Shown: in pieces, positions 6,504-50,103 of the stretch
Layout: every line of letters starts with the position of its first letter
Position numbering within the stretch: position 1 is the first letter of the stretch
Origin: Algoriphagus machipongonensis
Lineage (GTDB): Bacteria; Bacteroidota; Bacteroidia; Cytophagales; Cyclobacteriaceae
Reading direction: 5' to 3'
NCBI RefSeq assembly: GCF_000166275.1
Contig: NZ_CM001023.1
Coordinates: 2,545,001 to 2,609,000 of the forward strand
Length of the DNA: 64,000 nucleotides
Notes under the pieces: model-generated
Databases searched by the model: none
The model's input: only the letters and a program-made list of their open reading frames with translations
Told to the model about the DNA's origin: nothing
Program-made: the position numbers and the translations under genes

Positions 6504-8162
6504 ATGAGAAAAATTTACCCTATCACCTTACTTTTTTCATGCTTTACTTTGTTTATAGCCTGCAAATCCAACGAACAAGGTTTTACAAAAAAAGATGTAG
6601 AAAAAAGTCAGAAGTTAATCGGACTTGAATTTGAAAAGCCTGCCATAGAAACCATGTATGGATATCTGGGGAGAAATAAGTCTGGGTATGACAGTTTGCG
6701 TGCATATTCTATTTCCAATGAAACCTTTCCTGCCATTACATTTGATCCCCATCCTGGTGGGTTTCAATTTCCAGAAAAAGGAAAGGATCCAGAATTTTCT
6801 ATTCCATCAGGTATTGAGGTTCCTGAGGACTTTGAAGAAATTGCTTTCTATACCATCCCACAACTTGCTTCTTTAATCAAAAACAAAAAGGTTACCTCAG
6901 CTGAATTGACTCGCTTGTTTATTGATAGAATTAAGAGATTTGATGGTGAGTTAGAATCGGTCATTACTTTGACTGAGGATTTAGCAATGTTTCAAGCCAA
7001 TAAGGCAGATGAGGAAATAGCTGCAGGAAATTATAAAGGGATTCTCCACGGAATCCCTTATGGTGTAAAAGATTTAATGGCGGTTGAGGGTTATCCCACA
7101 ACCTGGGGAGCTGAACCTTATAAATCCCAAATGATTGATCATACGGCTACAGTAGTAAATAAGCTAGAGGAACAGGGAGCAGTTTTGATTGCTAAACTGG
7201 TGTCAGGTTCTTTGGCAAGAGGGGATGTATGGTTTGGAGGGAAAACCAAAAACCCATGGGATGTGACGCAAGGAGCTAGTGGTTCCTCTGCAGGATCAGG
7301 TTCAGCAACTTCCGCTGGCTTAGTTCCCTTTGCTCTCGGAACAGAGACTTTGGGTTCTATAACTTCTCCAGCTACAAGAAATGGGGTGACTGGATTAAGA
7401 CCTACCTATGGAAGAGTTAGTCGCTATGGAGTCATGAGTTTGAGCTGGTCCATGGATAAAATAGGTCCTCTGGCAAGGAATGCTGAGGATTGTGAAATCG
7501 TTTTTCAAGCTATTTATGGGAAAGACGATAAAGACCCCAGCACCAATGAAATTCCTTTCAATCAGTTTAGCAATAGCCCAAAAGAGTTAAAAGTTGCCTA
7601 CCTCAAGAAGGATTTGGACAAGGATACAACCATTACTGGAGATAACTTAAGAGCCTCTTTATCAGTTTTTAAGGAAATGGGAGTGGAGCCAGATTCCATT
7701 GAGCTGCCGGAAGATTTTCCATATGCAGCTTTTGATATCATTTTGCGCTCAGAGGCCGGTGCATTCTTTGATGAATTGGTGCGCTCTGGTGAAGTGGATT
7801 TGATGGTAGAGCAACATGGAGGATCTAGGGCAAACTCACTTCGTCAAGCTCGATTTATTCCTGCGGTGGAATATTTGCAGGCAAATAGAGTAAGAAGAGA
7901 GCTGATTGAGAAACTATATGAACTTTTTAAAGAATATGATGTGATCATTGCCCCAAGTTATAGAAGTAGACAACTATTAATTACCAATCTAACAGGACAT
8001 CCGGTCGTTTCTGTTCCCAATGGATTTGATAAAAAGGGGAGGCCAACCAGCTTTACATTGATTGGAAATTTATACGATGAGGGAAGTATTTTGGCTTTGG
8101 CAAAAGCATTTCAAAAAGCCACTGACTTTGATGAAAAACATCCTCCCAAGTTTATGGAATAA
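6504..8162 (+). CDS. amidase-signature family hydrolase, lipoprotein
   Basis: Amidase-signature (GatA-like fold) enzyme hydrolysing a C-N amide bond; the substrate is unknown. An in-frame TTG lies 9 bp upstream, but ATG 6504 places MRKIYP directly before the signal. A lipobox (LFIAC) indicates membrane anchoring outside the cytoplasm, so this is not the tRNA amidotransferase subunit. The catalytic Ser-cisSer-Lys triad is visible: Lys in GIPYGVKDL (about residue 189), the GSSAGS cis-serine loop (about 261-266), and the nucleophile in TETLGSITSPA (about Ser285). A novel N-terminal region of about 110 residues precedes the amidase core. The length of 552 residues is normal for secreted amidases. 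It ends 6 bp before a converging cytochrome gene. Confidence 0.88.
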   Translation: MRKIYPITLLFSCFTLFIACKSNEQGFTKKDVEKSQKLIGLEFEKPAIETMYGYLGRNKSGYDSLRAYSISNETFPAITFDPHPGGFQFPEKGKDPEFSIPSGIEVPEDFEEIAFYTIPQLASLIKNKKVTSAELTRLFIDRIKRFDGELESVITLTEDLAMFQANKADEEIAAGNYKGILHGIPYGVKDLMAVEGYPTTWGAEPYKSQMIDHTATVVNKLEEQGAVLIAKLVSGSLARGDVWFGGKTKNPWDVTQGASGSSAGSGSATSAGLVPFALGTETLGSITSPATRNGVTGLRPTYGRVSRYGVMSLSWSMDKIGPLARNAEDCEIVFQAIYGKDDKDPSTNEIPFNQFSNSPKELKVAYLKKDLDKDTTITGDNLRASLSVFKEMGVEPDSIELPEDFPYAAFDIILRSEAGAFFDELVRSGEVDLMVEQHGGSRANSLRQARFIPAVEYLQANRVRRELIEKLYELFKEYDVIIAPSYRSRQLLITNLTGHPVVSVPNGFDKKGRPTSFTLIGNLYDEGSILALAKAFQKATDFDEKHPPKFME

Positions 8163-27960: not shown

Positions 27961-28843
27961 CAGTTAATGTCTATAATCTTCGCCGCCTTTAGTATCCATA
28001 ATTTTAGCTCCATTTGTATCAATAATCTTCTCCGCCGTTCCTGTTTTCACGAATGGCTTAACCTGGGTTGTTTAAATGGTTCTTAAACAACTTGCTTTCC
28101 AATCCTCGGCAATACTTTCGCATTTAAATAGGCGATTCTGGGCCGAGGAAAATGGTGTTTCTCACTTTATTTACCTAGGGTTTCGTCGTGCCTCCTCACC
28201 CTAGGCTAAAGAAATGGTCGCCCCTTCAGGGCTTGATTCTATTTTAAGGAGTGTTTGCTGTCGTTCATGTCAATAATCTTCGCCGCCATTCGTGTCTTCA
28301 CGAATGGCTTAACATGGGTTATTTAAACGGTTCCTAAACAACTTGCTTTCCAATCCTCGGCAATACTTTCACATTTCAATAGACGATTCTGGGCCGAGGA
28401 AAATGGTATTCCTCATTTTTTACCAAGGGTTTCGTCGTGCCTCCTCACCCTAGGCTAAAGAAATTGTCGCCCTTCAGGGCTTGATTCTATTTTAAGGAGT
28501 GTTTGCAGCCGTTCAATTCAATAATCTTCTACGCCCTTCGTGTCTTCACGAATGGCTAAACATGGGTTATTTAAATGGTTCTTAAACAACTGGCTTTCCA
28601 ATCCTCGGCAATACATTTCACATTTCAAGAGATGATTCTGGGCCGAGGAAAAGGGTGTGCCTCATTTTTTACCTAGGGTTTCGTCGTTCCTCCTTACCCT
28701 AGGCTAAAGAAATTGTCGCCCCTTCAGGGCTTGATTCTATTTTAAGGAGTGTTTGCTGCCGTTCAATTCAATAATCTTCGCCGTCGTTCCTGTCTTCACG
28801 AATGGCTTAACATGGGTTATTTAAACGGTTCCTAAACAACTTA
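27961..28843. repeat. tandem array of about 250-bp units, each with three hairpins
   Basis: The string CAATAATCTTC recurs at 28020, 28271, 28519 and 28769, giving spacings of 251, 248 and 250 bases. A degenerate partial copy starts near 27971 and the last copy stops near 28843. Each full unit contains CCTCGGC...GCCGAGG (28104-28148 in the first), CCTAGGG...CCCTAGG (28174-28205) and GCCCCTTCAGGGC (28220-28232). No open frame is conserved between units. The array fills the gap between the permease and monooxygenase genes. It looks like a noncoding Bacteroidota palindromic repeat; function is unknown. Confidence 0.85.
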
Positions 28844-32148: not shown

Positions 32149-32589
32149 ATGCCTTTCGTCAAAGTTTATATCCATTTTGTATGGACTACAAAAAATCGAT
32201 ATCCTTATTTTAATAGCAAAGAATTGCGATTAAAAGTATGGGAACATATTCGAGAAAACTCAAAATCTAAAGGAATTTTCGTAGACTTTGTGAGTGGACA
32301 CGATGATCACTGTCATTGCCTAGTTTCTTTGGGAATAAATCAAACCATCCAAAAAATTATGCAACTCATCAAAGGTGAGTCTTCCTATTGGATTAATAAA
32401 AGTCAATTGACAGCAGAGAAATTTGAATGGCAAGATGAATATTACGCAGTTTCAGTTTCTGAGTCGGTGCTAGATCGGGTTAGGAAATATATCAAGAATC
32501 AAGAGGATCATCATAGGAAAAAGTCTTTTCAAGAAGAATATGAGGAATTCATTGAAAAATTTGGATTCCAAAAATTTCAAGATTTATGA
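32149..32589 (+). CDS. IS200-like Y1 (HUH) transposase, REP-associated (RAYT type)
   Basis: A 146-residue single-strand DNA transposase of the IS200/IS605 Y1 family. The HUH metal motif is HCH at residues 54-56 in DDHCHCLVSLG, the conserved helix follows (QTIQKIMQLIKGESSYWINK), and the nucleophilic tyrosine is Tyr114 in KYIKNQEDHH. The length is normal and the frame is intact, so it could be active. It is embedded between blocks of palindromic modules; the module palindrome begins 1 bp after its stop codon. No tnpB is present. RAYT proteins nick and rejoin REP hairpins, so the flanking modules are its likely substrate. This is inference from arrangement. Confidence 0.85.
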   Translation: MPFVKVYIHFVWTTKNRYPYFNSKELRLKVWEHIRENSKSKGIFVDFVSGHDDHCHCLVSLGINQTIQKIMQLIKGESSYWINKSQLTAEKFEWQDEYYAVSVSESVLDRVRKYIKNQEDHHRKKSFQEEYEEFIEKFGFQKFQDL

Positions 32590-32590
32590 A

Positions 32591-33224
32591 TTCGGCTAAA
32601 GCCGGCAACAATTGCTTATTGTTGTTAATAACACCACCTAAAGCTGGTGTTAATTTATAGGTTCCGATTCCCAAAACACAATCTAAAGCTGGTGTTAATC
32701 GATTGATAGTTTCCTATTCCCATAACACAATATGAAGCTGGTGTTAATCAATAGTTTTCGATTGCAGTTTTTGGCTTGCCTTGACAGTAAAAAAATTACA
32801 AATAATTGATCTATTTGTCTGGCTTTAATTTATTGGAGCTAGGTGGCTTTAGGTCATTCGCTATTTAATCAATAGGTATGTGGCTTTAGCCCATTCCAAT
32901 GAGAGTATGAAGACCTTTTTACCAACAGAAAAATTCGGCTAAAGCCGGATAAGATTCCTGTTTATAGTTAATAACATCATCTAAAGCTGGTGTTAATTAA
33001 TAGTTTCAGATTGCTATAAATCGCCATCTGTTGCTGGTTTAGCTAAATAGTTTTCGATTGCAATTTTTGGCTTGCTTTGACAGTAAAAAAATCACAAATA
33101 ATTGATCTATTTGTCTGGCTATAATTGATTGGAACGTGGCTTTAGGTCATTCGCTATTTAATCAATAGGAATGTGGCTTTAGCCCTTTCCGCTCGTTATT
33201 TGTTCATTAAAATCGGCTTCAGCC
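32591..33224. repeat. palindromic repeat modules, right of the IS200-like transposase
   Basis: Two more modules: TTCGGCTAAAGCCGG at 32591 and 32934, several AACACCA/AACACAA...TGGTGTT hairpins (near 32629, 32675 and 32724), and closing GGCTTTAGC palindromes near 32875-32897 and 33168-33190. The block ends with TCGGCTTCAGCC (33212-33224), again inverted relative to its opening. The spacer after the opening motif in 32934 (AAGATTCCTGTTTATAG) matches the module at 31743, so modules are exchanged or duplicated across the transposase. Confidence 0.85.
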
Positions 33225-44586: not shown

Positions 44587-45293
44587 CCTTCTATATTAAT
44601 CTGAAATAAAGAAACAAAATAAGATCATTTGGCAGATTGTCCAAGGATTTAGTAAATCTAAGGGGGATTTTATAAGTTGGTTTTCATTATTGTTCTCTTA
44701 GGGTATTGAATATTTCAGAGACATTTTTTTATTCTTGTTCTTTTGCCTTGATGCAAAAGAACTAAAAAATCAAGACACAGCTAAGCTTCCACCGCACGTC
44801 CCAACAGCACTCCCCGCGGCTGTGTCCTCCTAACGCGCTTTCAACAATAAACCTTAAATAAATCAAATCGATCAAAAACATTGAAATTCCTAAAAATAAT
44901 ACCGACTTGAAAGAGAGTTTAGGGAAAGGGATTTTGCCTGCCTGACGAGAGACAGGGGTACTTTTGGCCTCAAAAGTACCATAGAGCTTTATTCAACTGT
45001 GGGTTAATCATGAATAACAAAAAGGATGGATAAGCATTTTTTCATTCTTTATTCCTTTAAATAAAAGTACTAAACTCGAACATATTGATAGGAAAAGCTT
45101 AGGCAAAGACTTCACCGCATAGCTTAATAGTTTTAATTCCCAGCTGCGTCCTCTAAACCCGATTTAGATATAAATAAAAAAATGGGTAAGGAAGATGAAA
45201 TTAACTTTATAACACTTGGAGATTAAACTTAAAGCAAGAACCAAAAATCAAAATATTAGTTTCCTTGTCAAGAAATTCAATTAAATTCAAGCT
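44587..45293. repeat. 700-bp intergenic region with Bacteroidota-type palindromes
   Basis: Gene-free stretch. GTTCTTTTGC...GCAAAAGAAC (44738-44762) is a perfect hairpin and GGTACTTTT...AAAAGTACC (44957-44980) another, the latter preceded by GCCTGCCTGACGAGAGACAG. These strings are typical of repetitive intergenic elements I recall from Cytophagales genomes. The region is otherwise without an open frame or recognisable RNA. Confidence 0.6.
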
Positions 45294-45785: not shown

Positions 45786-47369
45786 TCAATTCTTCCTTTT
45801 AAACTTTCGAATCCAAAGCTTCCCTTTTTCCTCCTCTTCCAGCAATTGATAATTCATGGCTTTAAGCCAACTTTCCAATGCATCCACATCTTCCTGTTCC
45901 TTGGGATAGGCATGTTGATAATAATGATAAATCAGCACCTGTAATTCCTCAGGTGGATCTTGACTCAAACTTTCAACTTCTTCCAAAGAATATAACTTTT
46001 CTTGTGCTTCTAAATTCTCTGGAATTAGGACTTCTTTACTAAAGTGAATAAAATTATTAGTAATAATAATATCCTCTTTTTCAGACGATTGAGTGATATT
46101 AGTTAATTCATCAATTAATGAAGGATATTGCTTGAGTTGGTTTTGATAATAGATGGAATAAATAGCTGGAGTAAGTAAAAGAAAGCTTAAAAGCAGCCAT
46201 TGAATCTTACGTTTTTTAATGAGGAGTAAAGGGAAGAAGCAGGAAATAAAAGCAGCTTGTTTTAAGTCAAATTGCAAGGCTGCGAGGATTACTCCAAATC
46301 CCAAAGCGATCAGGATAAATCTTCTCCATTTTACGGATCCTTGCCAAGCATCCCAACCTATTGCTATAAGAAATGCAAGGATTGGAACGAGGATAATTAA
46401 ATGTCTTGGATTTAAGTAAATAGGGTTGTAAAAAGCAAGAGTAGAGCTCATAAACCAAAAGCCAATCATCAGGCACAGAAAAGCAATCGAAGACTCGAAA
46501 TATATCGGCTTTTTATGTTTCAGCCCCTGATATACTGCTGGAATTGCAAATACTATCCAGGGCCAATAAGCTCTTTCCACAAAAGTTTGAAAAGGCAAGA
46601 TCGTTAACCTTTCCATAATCGACCAGAAACCTTTGTCTGCATAGGTGTATTCGGAAATGTAATGGCCGGCATTGATTGAGGTCACTCGGTAAAAAGGATC
46701 TCCGAATTTGGCCCAGAAGTACCCTAAATAGAGAAATGCTGCTAATACTGAAAAAATTAAAAAGGTTAAATAAAAGCCCTTTCTAACCGTGTTTGACTTA
46801 TGATCAATCCAATAAAGAATTAGGGGTAGAGGAAAAAGGAAAATGATAGTTTCCTTAGTAATAAACCCTAAAGTAAAGGCGATCATCAGTAATTTTCCGC
46901 CGGTTACGGAATTTGTTTTACGAATGCTTGCACCAAAAATAGCCAATGCCACACAAAAGACTAAGAGACCGTCAGGATATACTTTGGTTAAGAAATGAAG
47001 GAGGTAAACTTGGGTCAAAAACCAAAGTGAAAACAGAATTTTTTCTTGGTTTGTGGATAGGAGACTATAGAGCAAAAGGTAAGCTCCAAGGTAAGCAAGG
47101 AGTGAAATCAAAGAAAAAGTATGGGCATCAAAGCCAATCAGTAAGCCTGCCAATCCTGCAGGAATATAGGCTCCCCAACGACTGGAAAAATGATAGGAAT
47201 TCACCTCCATGGTTCCATTCCAGAAATCTCTACCAGCTAACATGTAATACACGTCATCGCTAAAGGTGATACCATCAAATCCAAAAATCCAATAAAAGAT
47301 CAAGAACAAACTTCCCAGCAGAAGCGGCAGATTTTTAGGGGAGTTAGAAAGTTGGTTGGTTTTTATCAT
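45786..47369 (-). CDS. glycosyltransferase family 39-like membrane protein
   Basis: A 527-residue integral membrane protein with about eleven transmembrane segments and a soluble C-terminal tail of about 110 residues. The first periplasmic loop has the catalytic acidic pair SDDVYYMLAGRDFW (about 36-49), the hallmark of the PMT/ArnT GT-C group that uses polyprenyl-linked sugar donors. The sugar and acceptor are unknown. The gene is the last one before the DUF559 repeat island and is oriented away from it. Confidence 0.75.
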   Translation of the reverse strand: MIKTNQLSNSPKNLPLLLGSLFLIFYWIFGFDGITFSDDVYYMLAGRDFWNGTMEVNSYHFSSRWGAYIPAGLAGLLIGFDAHTFSLISLLAYLGAYLLLYSLLSTNQEKILFSLWFLTQVYLLHFLTKVYPDGLLVFCVALAIFGASIRKTNSVTGGKLLMIAFTLGFITKETIIFLFPLPLILYWIDHKSNTVRKGFYLTFLIFSVLAAFLYLGYFWAKFGDPFYRVTSINAGHYISEYTYADKGFWSIMERLTILPFQTFVERAYWPWIVFAIPAVYQGLKHKKPIYFESSIAFLCLMIGFWFMSSTLAFYNPIYLNPRHLIILVPILAFLIAIGWDAWQGSVKWRRFILIALGFGVILAALQFDLKQAAFISCFFPLLLIKKRKIQWLLLSFLLLTPAIYSIYYQNQLKQYPSLIDELTNITQSSEKEDIIITNNFIHFSKEVLIPENLEAQEKLYSLEEVESLSQDPPEELQVLIYHYYQHAYPKEQEDVDALESWLKAMNYQLLEEEEKGKLWIRKFKRKN

Positions 47370-47506
47370 GAAGGAGGTAAAAATAGGGAATTTTGTATAC
47401 CTAAGTTCCTATTCCATGAGGGAATAGATTTCAATTTTATAGGATTGGTGAAATATGATTTTAAATATTTAAAAGTTATAGCAATTTCATTTTTGGAGAA
47501 GGAATG

Positions 47507-48093
47507 AATCCCCCTAACCCCCTTTATAAAAGGGGGAGTTGGCGAAGGTCGCTTAATTCGATCTTGGGAAAATGATGGGGCTTTTATTGATGTTTATATG
47601 TTTTTGTACTAGTTTTTAATTAAAACCTAACTTCATTTTTGGGAAGGTATCAACTCCCTTTTGTAAAGGGGGAGTTGGTGAAGGTCGCTCAATTCGATCT
47701 TGGGGAAATGATGAGGCTTTTATTGATTTCTATATGTTTTTATACTGGTTATTAATTGAAACCTAACTTCATTTTTGGTGAAGGTTGAACTCCCTTTTGT
47801 AAAGGGGGAGTTGGTGAAGGTCGCTTAATTCGATCTTGTTGAAATGACGAGACGTTTATGGATTTCTATATGTTTGGAATATTGGTTGTTAATTAAAACC
47901 TAACTTTATTTTTTGGAAACGGATCAACTCCCTTTTGTAAAGGTGGAGTTGATGAAGGTCGCTTAATTCGATCTTGGGAAAATGATGGGGCTTTTATTGA
48001 TTTCTAAATGTTTTTTTACTGGTTGTTAATTGAAACCTAAGTTCATATTTGGAGAAGGATCAACTCCCCCTTGGCAAGGGGGCTAGGGGGATT
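47507..48093. repeat. left hairpin array of the DUF559 island
   Basis: Four tandem units of 136-138 bp. The string GGGGGAGTT or its one-base variants occurs at 47532, 47668 and about 47805 and 47942, each as the right arm of an AACTCCC...GGGAGTT hairpin. The array opens with AATCCCCCTAACCCCC (47507) and closes with GGGGGCTAGGGGGATT (to 48093); these are inverted complements, so the array has terminal inverted repeats of about 32 bases including the adjacent hairpin arms. No open frame is shared by the units. It ends 25 bp before the DUF559 start codon. Confidence 0.9.
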
Positions 48094-48118
48094 GTTTAAA
48101 ATTCCTTATTTTAACTAA

Positions 48119-48517
48119 ATGTATTTTTTACCTTATAACCGCTCCCTGAAAGAGTTTTCAAGAGAGCTAAGGAATCACTCCACATTGTCTGAGATATTGC
48201 TTTGGAATAAATTAAAGGCTAAAAACTTCCGAGGTTATTCTTTCAACCGGCAAAAGCCTTTAGGAAATTATATTGTTGATTTTTATTGTAAAAAATTGGG
48301 TTTAGTTATTGAAGTAGATGGTGATTCTCATGTACACCCGGAAGCAGTTCTGAAAGATAATGTAAGACAGAAAGTGCTTGAAGACTTAGGACTAGAATTT
48401 TTTAGGATTCCTGATGCTGAGATCAAAAGACAAATGCTGGAGGTACTTGATTCTCTAAATAGGTTGATAGATAAACTGGAGGAGGAAAAAGGTCTTGATA
48501 AGACTAATTTTGTTTGA
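48119..48517 (+). CDS. DUF559 domain endonuclease (PD-(D/E)XK / Vsr-like)
   Basis: A 132-residue protein of the DUF559 family, related to very-short-patch-repair endonucleases. Recognised elements are ELRNHSTLSEILLWNKLKAK (Glu25), FNRQKPLGNYIVDFYC (Gln45, Asp54) and LVIEVDGDSHVH (Glu65, Asp67). The C-terminus has VLEDLGLEFFRIPDAEI, also typical. The catalytic acidic residues look intact and the length is full. The gene lies 25 bp after one hairpin array and 7 bp before another, with nothing else in between. This is unlike an ordinary chromosomal setting and suggests the nuclease acts on, or spreads with, the repeats. No transposase or resolvase is present. Confidence 0.88.
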   Translation: MYFLPYNRSLKEFSRELRNHSTLSEILLWNKLKAKNFRGYSFNRQKPLGNYIVDFYCKKLGLVIEVDGDSHVHPEAVLKDNVRQKVLEDLGLEFFRIPDAEIKRQMLEVLDSLNRLIDKLEEEKGLDKTNFV

Positions 48518-48524
48518 TTTTTGA

Positions 48525-49114
48525 AATCCCCCTTACCCCCTTTATAAAAGGGGGAGTTGGTGAAGGTTACCTAGTTTAAGACTTGAAAGTATTATGGTGG
48601 CTTTTATTGATTTCTATATGTTTTTATACTGGTTGTTAATTGAATCCTAATTTCATATTTGGAAACGTATCAACTCCCTTTTGTAAAGGGGGAGTTGGTG
48701 AAGTTCGCTCAATTTGATCTTGTTGAAATGACGAGACGTTTATGGATTTCAATATGTTTAGAATACTTGTTGTTAATTGAAACCTAAGTTCATATTTGGA
48801 AACGGATCAACTCCCTTTTGTAAAGGTGGAGTTGGTGAAGGTCGCTTAATTCGATCTTGGGGAAATGATGAGGCTTTTATTGATTTCTATATGTTTAGAA
48901 TATTGGTTGTTAATTAAAACCTAACTTCATTTTTGGAAAAGGATCAACTCCCTTTTGTAAAGGGGAAGTTGGTGAAGGTCGTTTAATTCGATCTTGGGGA
49001 AATGATGAGGCTTTTATTGATTTCTATATGTTTAGAATATTGGTTTTTAATTGAAACCTAAGTTCATATTTGGAAACGGATCAACTCCCCCTTGGCAAGG
49101 GGGCTAGGGGGATT
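48525..49114. repeat. right hairpin array of the DUF559 island
   Basis: Four tandem units spaced 137-138 bp, with GGGGGAGTT-type arms at 48550, 48688, 48825 and 48962. The array opens with AATCCCCCTTACCCCC (48525) and closes with GGGGGCTAGGGGGATT (to 49114), the same inverted ends as the left array. Unit two (variant GTTGAAATGACGAGACG) matches unit three of the left array rather than its own neighbours. Confidence 0.9.
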
Positions 49115-49191: not shown

Positions 49192-50103
49192 ATGGCTCAA
49201 GCAGGAAAAATCGAACAACAAAAAATCCTTAGGGTTTTTAAACTCATTAACCTTCTACAGGGAAACATTGGGAAACCTGTACATAGACTTGCCGAACTAC
49301 TGGAAACGGATGAACGAACCATTTATCGTTATTTCAAACTGCTGGAGGCTTTGGGTTTTGAAGTCATTAAAGAGTTTAGCAAATATAAAATTCAACAAAG
49401 ACCAGGCATTGATCAAACACTGAACTATGGTACGTTCTCTCAAGAAGAAAGCCAGTGGTTAAAAGCTTTGATAGAACGACAAGGAAAAGGAAACCTCCTG
49501 CATGATTCCATCCTGCAAAAGCTACAAGTTAGGTCTGAGGTAAAACAAGGAACGGAACAGCTTTTTAAAGCGAACCTAAGCCGATTGGTGGATGAAATTG
49601 GAAAAGGTATTCAGGATAAGAAACAGGTCTGGCTCAAGGATTATTACTCCTTAAGTAGTGATACTACCAGTGATCGATTGGTAGAGCCTGTGGCATTCTC
49701 CAGCACTTATGAAAGTATTCATGCTTTCGAACCAGAGAGCAATAGAATGAAAGTATTTAAGATCGAAAGAATTGGTGAAGTAGTGATTGCTACTCAAGGT
49801 TGGAAGTTTGAAAAAAAGCACCAACTACCGGGGACTCAACTTTTTGGATTTACAGGTAAAAATCGTTTTAAAGTGAAGTTGAAACTGTCTAAAAAGGCTT
49901 ACCAACTGATGATGGAAGAACATCCCAATGCAAGACCCTTTATGGAAGTTAAAAATAGGAATCAATTCTTTTTCCAAGGGGAGATTCCTCATTTACCAGG
50001 ATTAGCACGTTTTATTTTAGGTTTGCCGGGTGAGGTAATGGTAGAAGAAGGAGAGGAGCTAAAAGCCTATTTAGCAGAGCAGCTCGAAAGAACTTTTAGC
50101 TAA
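49192..50103 (+). CDS. WYL-domain transcriptional regulator
   Basis: A 303-residue regulator. The N-terminal winged helix (about 8-65, VFKLINLLQGNIGKPVHRLA, then TDERTIYRYFKLLEALGFEV) is a HTH_11/DeoR-like DNA-binding domain. A WYL-type ligand-sensing domain follows (about 140-230) with a WCX-like tail. Such regulators often respond to nucleotides or DNA damage and sit near defence or repair genes. The gene starts 77 bp after the DUF559 island, so the island's right end is next to its promoter. It is followed by the subtilase gene after 90 bp. Confidence 0.85.
   Translation: MAQAGKIEQQKILRVFKLINLLQGNIGKPVHRLAELLETDERTIYRYFKLLEALGFEVIKEFSKYKIQQRPGIDQTLNYGTFSQEESQWLKALIERQGKGNLLHDSILQKLQVRSEVKQGTEQLFKANLSRLVDEIGKGIQDKKQVWLKDYYSLSSDTTSDRLVEPVAFSSTYESIHAFEPESNRMKVFKIERIGEVVIATQGWKFEKKHQLPGTQLFGFTGKNRFKVKLKLSKKAYQLMMEEHPNARPFMEVKNRNQFFFQGEIPHLPGLARFILGLPGEVMVEEGEELKAYLAEQLERTFS

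Follow-up and report, generated by a model that had tools for sequence, protein, structure and literature searches.

In RAYT systems, the type of the repeat follows the enzyme. The enzyme is a HUH tyrosine transposase, and two sources (PMC2817692, PMC3733652) describe a small gene between two inverted palindromic repeats, repeats that consist of a short head and a hairpin and stand in inverted pairs, and dispersed copies that carry no gene. A second group of enzymes to be compared with the present locus is the DUF559 nucleases. A DUF559 gene is placed in the EDxHD homing endonuclease family (PMC9403480), a Caulobacter DUF559 protein is presented as Vsr-like with a predicted role in mismatch repair (PMC12907096), and Vsr and YcjD/DUF559 are assigned to one superfamily (PMC1189080). 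Among the matches listed in a search of open-licence titles and abstracts, none connects DUF559 to flanking repeats or shows the sequences described below in such a placement.

The window analyzed here is a stretch of 64,000 nucleotides, positions 2,545,001-2,609,000 of the single-contig genome of Algoriphagus machipongonensis (4,786,724 bases), and coordinates are given within it. A standalone DUF559 nuclease gene of 132 aa, recognized from its open reading frame (ORF), its Pfam match and its predicted fold, lies on the forward strand at 48119-48517. It is bracketed by a left array (47507-48093) and a right array (48525-49114), both of which read L-h-h-h-R on the forward strand. An earlier note, made from the sequence alone, had described a lone and complete DUF559 gene between two arrays, and the ORF, the PF04480 match and the arrays on both sides bear this out; its distances of 25 bp from the left array to the gene and 7 bp from the gene to the right array are also correct. 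No obvious partner gene was seen beside the DUF559 gene in the window. The left neighbor, a 527-aa putative glycosyltransferase-like membrane protein (45786-47369, reverse strand), and the right neighbor, a 303-aa putative WYL-type regulator (49192-50103, forward strand), serve as markers for the empty site.

All parts of the arrays are given on the forward strand. The left array starts with the outermost L end (AAT-CCCCC-TAA-CCCCC-loop-GGGGG, 47507-47536), an inverted complement of the R ends that folds as a hairpin. It continues with four spacers of ~107 bp and three inner hairpins (interior 47537-48060; hairpins at 47649-47677, about 47786-47815, and about 47924-47953), which lack the extra run, and closes toward the gene with an R end (CCCCC-loop-GGGGG-CTA-GGGGG-ATT, 48061-48093), whose folding is predicted. 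The right array starts toward the gene with an L end (AAT-CCCCC-TTA-CCCCC-loop-GGGGG, 48525-48554), followed by four spacers and three inner hairpins (interior 48555-49081; hairpins at 48669-48697, about 48807-48836, and about 48944-48973) and by the outermost R end (CCCCC-loop-GGGGG-CTA-GGGGG-ATT, 49082-49114), likewise predicted to fold. The unit spacing is 136-138 bp in both arrays, and Tandem Repeats Finder gives 136 bp with 4.1 copies and 137 bp with 3.7 copies, in agreement with the four-unit arrays of 136-138 bp first noticed. The two arrays are direct copies of one another, while L and R ends are inverted copies, so that the ends previously called inverted complements are indeed found as inverted pairs in the sequence comparison. 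A hairpin is present in every unit, as had been claimed, but the inner ones (h) have neither the extra C-run that marks L nor the extra G-run that marks R. The proposed array edges are less sharp on the left, where about 47483-47506 resembles the sequence preceding each inner hairpin.

As single-stranded DNA, L and h are predicted to fold as simple hairpins. In the R end, both G-runs are possible partners of the C-run, and the outer one is used in the predicted fold. The folding z-scores of five pieces range from -1.1 to -2.8. By sequence, h resembles a fusion in which R contributes the left half and L the right half. Rfam at gathering scores returned zero matches for the whole window. Elsewhere in the window, a 249-bp tandem unit without C-run ends is repeated at 28019-28842 (3.3 copies, 91% match). 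A 146-aa Y1/IS200-type transposase gene lies at 32149-32589, and short repeats with a 49-bp period stand beside it (32630-32763); it is one of four such matches in the genome, all of which lack C-run ends. A REP/RAYT-like system may coexist with the DUF559 one in this genome.

The window nuclease matches PF04480 with an E-value of 4.3e-27, and Y1_Tnp, the HUH tyrosine transposase profile, gave no match at E up to 1. The nearest solved sequence is the endonuclease-like protein 3HRL (E 1.6e-30), and the next is the mobile-intron protein 3R3P (E 0.004, sequence profile). The structure was predicted from ten sequences with pLDDT 84.5. Foldseek with this model found 3HRL from Neisseria (E 6e-8), the homing endonuclease I-Bth0305I (3r3p) as the second-best entry (E 4e-4), mitochondrial ribosome chains (6e-4), PvuRts1I (0.002), AbaSI (0.004), and, more weakly, Vsr (1cw0, E 0.04). 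Four residues, E25, D54, H71 and D80, are invariant in an alignment of 10 sequences, and they are assigned by us as putative core residues of an EDxHD-type nuclease, following what we take to be the EDxHD motif. The predicted fold is Vsr/EDxHD-like. DUF559 has two further matches in this genome: L001/L042 is complete, and L003 is partial and lies within a 241-aa frame.

Of the 72 genomes of the genus, 40 have between one and five DUF559 matches each. For the genus set, 40 matches were fetched with up to 16 kb around them, and 37 genes of at least 95 aa were counted (36 fetched plus that of the window); the counts omit the shorter or broken L077, L078, L080 and L081 and the unfetched matches, several of which are at contig edges. 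An L or R motif is present within 600 bp of 32 of the 37 genes, and on both sides of 24. The 44 kb around the genes contain 107 motifs and the 488 kb beyond contain 11, a near/far density ratio of 107x, while the reversed motif used as a control occurs 5 times in 547 kb. The named set comprises the best 80 of at least 567 confirmed loci and is thereby biased toward relatives of the window's nuclease. It shows an end within 700 bp in 65/80 loci and on both sides in 45/80, with 183 motifs in 106 kb near and 46 in 1,077 kb far (density 40x) and 41 reversed motifs over the entire loci.

When the standalone loci are pooled, an end lies within 600 bp in 97 of 117, which include three duplicates (L060/L083, L073/L084, L065/L085) and so represent at most 114 distinct loci; both sides carry ends in 69/117, and 20/117 show no end. 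The hairpin-to-gene distance has a median of about 30 bp. Among control ORFs of at least 100 aa from the same loci, 36/857 have an end and 2/857 have ends on both sides. A comparison with genes of similar size had been proposed as a check, and it gives the expected difference, since only 7 of 245 small control ORFs (up to 200 aa) have an end and 2 have both, versus 97/117. DUF559 genes lying elsewhere without the repeats had been named as evidence that would speak against the proposal, and the opposite is seen in these 97 loci. DUF559 domains inside large ORFs (1101-1637 aa) have ends in 0 of 12 controls, hand-picked from genus matches and from carrier genomes of the named loci. Since ends are rare at control ORFs and absent from the large-ORF domains, it is the standalone gene with which they are associated, rather than the DUF559 domain or the surrounding region. 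Chance or a general abundance of hairpins is ruled out, since motif counts away from the genes lie at the reversed-control level (named loci, 46 in 1.08 Mb and 41 reversed over the entire loci; genus loci, 11 and 5) and the control ORFs are mostly without ends. DUF559 domains in ORFs of 1100-1640 aa recur across the sampled genomes without hairpin ends (L237-L248), and they are a separate use of the domain, possibly in defense.

Among the best 80 of at least 567 loci, at least one end was found in Bacteroidota (42/46), Planctomycetota (4/5), Fidelibacterota (3/3), Myxococcota (2/2), Nitrospirota (2/2), Balneolota, Calditrichota, Spirochaetota and Nitrospinota (1/1 each), Acidobacteriota (1/3), Pseudomonadota (1/2), and unplaced genomes (6/7). 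The motif detected no end in Ignavibacteriota (0/2), Bacillota (0/2), Thermotogota (0/1) and Chlorobiota (0/1) of the same set. The motif is built on C- and G-runs and variant ends escape it: of the 15 motif-less named loci, 13 were inspected by eye, and seven (L099, L101, L102, L105, L112, L153, L161) have variant ends with a second small hairpin between the stem and the extra run; the remaining ones inspected have bare hairpins alone or nothing. In an extra sample of genomes reached via 18 named loci, 17 of 22 loci have an end and 12 have both; these 22 of 30 fetched loci, counted after omission of five contig-edge and three large-ORF loci, overlap in many cases with the 80. Of 45 plasmid or phage matches, 11 were inspected, and nine have an end and five have both. 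Cyanobacterial and Deinococcus plasmids show the same gene-plus-ends arrangement, and in two Deinococcus plasmids the DUF559 gene lies amid paa and hpa genes.

The anatomy of the ends was derived from 129 different sequences, with identical ends entered once. An end consists, in order, of a gene-proximal head, a C-run, a linker, the hairpin, an A, and a weak A/G-T-T. The heads are AAT, mostly followed by five C, or (A)ACACA/(A)ACCCA, mostly followed by four C, and beyond the head there is almost no conservation. The linker between C-run and hairpin is usually T-initial, most commonly TAA or TAG. Run lengths are mostly equal within an end (4-4-4 in 47/129, 5-5-5 in 46/129, 6-6-6 in 5/129). Of 120 ends, 63 have T-A and 51 have C-G as the second stem pair, which indicates covariation, and the inner stem pairs are Watson-Crick in 312/360 versus at most 252 in shuffles. 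Over 48 loci, the similarity of an end to its partner at the same locus is 0.91, and re-pairing the ends lowers it to 0.77 (maximum 0.81). The loops of the two ends in these loci are equal in inverted orientation in 18, equal in direct orientation in 0, and unequal in 30. The possibility that the hairpins are a target duplication of a short-ended element is ruled out by this orientation of the equal loops (inverted 18/48, direct 0/48).

The end type also follows the nuclease. A quick tree of 115 nucleases (78 rows labelled), built from a small number of columns and leaving 49 of its 110 inner branches open, requires 9 changes of end type, versus a mean of 39.5 for shuffled labels, and 0 of 200 shuffles are as low. 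Since host descent could cause part of this fit, nucleases of different clades were compared within one genome. Ten such pairings, from nine genomes, have AAT-headed ends at the window-type member and not at its partner; half of the ten partner genes carry ends of their own with a different head, and at the other five the pattern finds none. In one metagenome-assembled genome, three DUF559 genes agree likewise with their end types. The DUF559 ends thus share the REP/RAYT trait that repeat type follows enzyme type.

Copies of the ends are also dispersed. In the 4.79-Mb genome, the sequence AATCCCCCTNNCCCCC has 9 copies, of which 4 belong to this locus, and 0 copies when read backwards; chance is therefore excluded for the repeats of the locus. 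Of 71 genomes of the genus, 57 contain the sequence, and a single backwards copy was found among all of them. This stricter pattern was used for the genome counts because a looser L pattern is less specific, being positive in all 72 genomes with a sizeable reversed control in many. The 18 carriers of a window-type gene have a median of 9 copies (median 6.5 away from the gene), versus a median of 2 in the 52 others (Mann-Whitney 1.9e-7 for all copies and 2.6e-5 away from the gene, kinship ignored; G067, a window-type carrier, is left out of this test, and G020 is absent from the genome counts). Without two genomes that have unfetched genes of the other, wzm-type clade, the test away from the gene gives 1.3e-5. 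The earlier note had anticipated that repeats without DUF559 would count against it, and such repeats are seen in the genus, where genomes with no DUF559 match still hold 18 (G003), 13 (G021) and 11 (G009) copies. These orphan repeats speak against a strict dependence on the gene; gene loss would look alike. At L011 and L012 in the window's own genome and at L188 in G001, a loop of about 40 bp divides the C-run/G-run hairpins.

Alleles with and without the element were compared at the window's site. The right neighbor has a match in 68/71 genomes of the genus; 30 loci were fetched, one of them the window's own, and the left neighbor is within reach in 21, all from relatives. The gap sequence was read for ten loci and its right part aligned for 14, and elsewhere absence was judged by gap length. 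By these means 18 of the 21 relatives lack the element, two retain end remnants only, and the last has the gene flanked on either side by a single unit. The gap between the neighbors is 134-280 bp in 17/21, one of which (G013) retains a decayed R end. In G001 (L188), a gap of 721 bp left of the 303-aa gene contains a lone R end whose hairpin is split, and in G047 a gap of 1076 bp contains the gene and one L-R unit per side. Two of the 18 element-free relatives have longer, differing gaps without such ends (G052, 719 bp; G027, 996 bp). The right flank common to the empty alleles starts from about 49124, ten bases past 49114, and no target duplication was seen by eye at this site. Alignment of empty orthologous sites, also proposed earlier, thus found alleles without the element; these belong to other species, with one genome per species, and so give no exact insertion boundaries.

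The nucleases closest to the window's occupy other gaps of that region. In G068 the gene lies between an SMC-like gene and a small gene that precedes the 527-aa gene, and the gap at the window's own place is empty; in G071 it lies between that small gene and the 527-aa gene, and the gap behind the SMC-like gene shows no ends. Across the genus, window-type genes occupy about ten intergenic sites, each common to just 2-4 fetched loci. An exact R head, TAAGGGGGATT, was observed at window 44659-44669, in the gap where G068 holds its element. Its interpretation as an element scar was rejected, as such a match is not above chance with one mismatch allowed. E. coli ycjD was fruitless as a polymorphism test: in 3362 of 5426 genomes one stretch matches 80% or more of the 2.5-kb query, the end pattern matched once, in one genome, and in two shorter matches inspected an efflux operon fills the gap adjoining sapF. 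The ycjD gene is annotated as frameshifted in E. coli 1EC213 (L235), and the region adjacent to sapF varies among E. coli genomes (L234-L236).

The other full DUF559 gene of the window's genome, L042, belongs to a clade with many members behind the 3' end of one gene family, which we read as an ABC-2-type, wzm-like permease. The last 27 bases of the permease gene recur beyond the element in 6 of 13 wzm-type loci examined, with 23 (L042), 23 (L044), 18 (L046), 26 (L055), 25 (L056) and 23 (L057) identical bases, and in L042, L056 and L057 the repeated gene end begins two bases after the outer G-run. The repeated end is either a long target duplication or a restoration of the gene end from another allele. 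In a sister subclade (L049, L050, L053, L077, L080), the within-genome pattern found no such ends, and the looser pattern of the genus count found one end at L050. At about 7450-7690 of the L042 locus (G000:2120500-2136500), several copies of the permease 3' end stand in a row, split by another palindrome family, GATCCCGAT...ATCGGGA.

The favored reading, with a probability of roughly 0.58, is that the locus is a small REP/RAYT-like mobile element: a Vsr/EDxHD-type DUF559 nuclease bracketed by its own inverted hairpin ends, which are also dispersed without the gene. The gene is bracketed by matched ends, ends and nucleases co-evolve, the element is present or absent at one site, and relatives sit in different gaps. 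Association and co-evolution across many phyla, as read from sequence comparison, strongly support that nuclease and repeats form one unit. The earlier proposal of a single RAYT/REP-like element with another fold agrees with the association, the co-evolution and the element-free alleles; movement of the repeats by the DUF559 nuclease is what we infer beyond these. The nuclease would recognize the head (AAT or ACACA plus C-run) with the adjoining hairpin, probably in an extruded or single-stranded form, and would nick or cut at the head-hairpin. Host repair or replication might then copy the gene cassette or a bare L..R unit into another intergenic site, and the arrays would lengthen by tandem duplication of hairpin and spacer.

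A free-standing homing endonuclease could leave a similar locus by cutting alleles that lack the gene, with break repair copying the gene in; the hairpins would then be part of, or grown from, the target, and would aid strand invasion or shield the filled site. I-Bth0305I, nearest in both fold and sequence after 3HRL, is consistent with this, as is the wzm-type clade, which is repeatedly found behind the 3' end of one family, with that end repeated in 6/13 loci (18-26 of 27 bases). Homing is nevertheless rather unlikely, because the window-type clade occupies about ten different intergenic sites in the genus and not one homologous site, gene-less dispersed ends are not expected, and its plain form yields no target duplication. 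It is improbable that the hairpins are REP-like palindromes which owe their spread to a different enzyme (a Y1/HUH transposase, for example), with DUF559 as a passenger or as an insertion into them. The genome does have four Y1_Tnp matches, one of them in the window, and repeats are present in genomes without DUF559, yet the L/R motif was found at 0 of 4 Y1 loci (1.5 kb either side), which led to the rejection of Y1/HUH as the mobilizer. Moreover, the end type tracks the DUF559 tree, two DUF559 genes within a genome have different end types, and the loops on the two sides are inverted, not direct.

A nuclease serving the host in Vsr-like repair, with immobile hairpins as its substrates or as regulators of expression (terminators, mRNA stability), would agree with the short hairpin-to-gene distance and with the Caulobacter protein reported as Vsr-like (PMC12907096). 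This explanation has a low probability, given the patchy presence (40/72 genomes), the different sites, the element-free alleles, the dispersed copies and the multi-unit arrays, and regulation leaves the inverted matched pairs on both sides unexplained. Least credible is a nuclease cassette with a selfish or defensive role (toxin-like or anti-phage) that homologous recombination moves from one dispersed repeat to another. The repeats could act as recombination sites, and PADLOC shows a weak resemblance to the defense profiles mREase_II and DpdF; against this, no obvious partner gene adjoins in the window, and simple recombination does not predict that the ends co-evolve with the nuclease.

For DUF559, a widespread domain without a known function, the matched, co-evolving ends supply a natural substrate to test. 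They also point to at least two origins of REP-like dissemination, with enzymes that are not related to each other. Whether standalone DUF559 genes are a second, enzymatically unrelated REP-spreading class, present in about a dozen phyla and behind a large unnamed family of C-run hairpins, is an even bet. If true, it would account for many C-run hairpin repeats across bacteria and provide a minimal nuclease-hairpin system for direct tests of how palindromic repeats spread.

Compared with MITEs and ISs, the DUF559 unit likewise has inverted ends, empty sites and non-autonomous copies, but it has no DDE or serine recombinase, its ends are hairpins of 30-40 bases, and no target duplication was seen by eye at the window's site. 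We know of no description of hairpin ends for Vsr. Vsr and YcjD/DUF559 are placed in the same superfamily by PMC1189080, with which the Foldseek match to 1cw0 (E 0.04) agrees. I-Bth0305I, an EDxHD homing endonuclease, is the nearest characterized fold (3r3p, E 4e-4), whereas the DUF559 gene lies outside any intron or intein, as read from the ORF list, and is flanked by cognate hairpins; the window-type clade differs from EDxHD homing in occupying many unrelated sites, while the wzm-type clade favors one gene end. With the presumed CGTC motif, CGTC-tagged REPs are not clearly enriched as a DUF559 partner (4 near in 164 kb versus 24 elsewhere in 1.64 Mb). They are palindromic repeats, reportedly without a dedicated transposase (PMC3733652), but have a different tag from the DUF559 ends. 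The likeness to REP/RAYT, whose side is taken from PMC2817692 and PMC3733652, comprises the single small nuclease gene between two inverted palindromic repeats, the short head plus hairpin in inverted pairs, and the gene-less dispersed copies, although the copy number of the DUF559 ends is modest. The differences are the HUH tyrosine transposase of RAYT versus a DUF559 nuclease of predicted Vsr/EDxHD fold, the GTAG/GTGG head versus AAT, ACACA or ACCCA before a C-run, and the small number of DUF559 ends per genome. Because enzyme and head differ, the locus is not a REP/RAYT member, and it is therefore filed as a REP/RAYT-like element with a putative Vsr/EDxHD-type nuclease.
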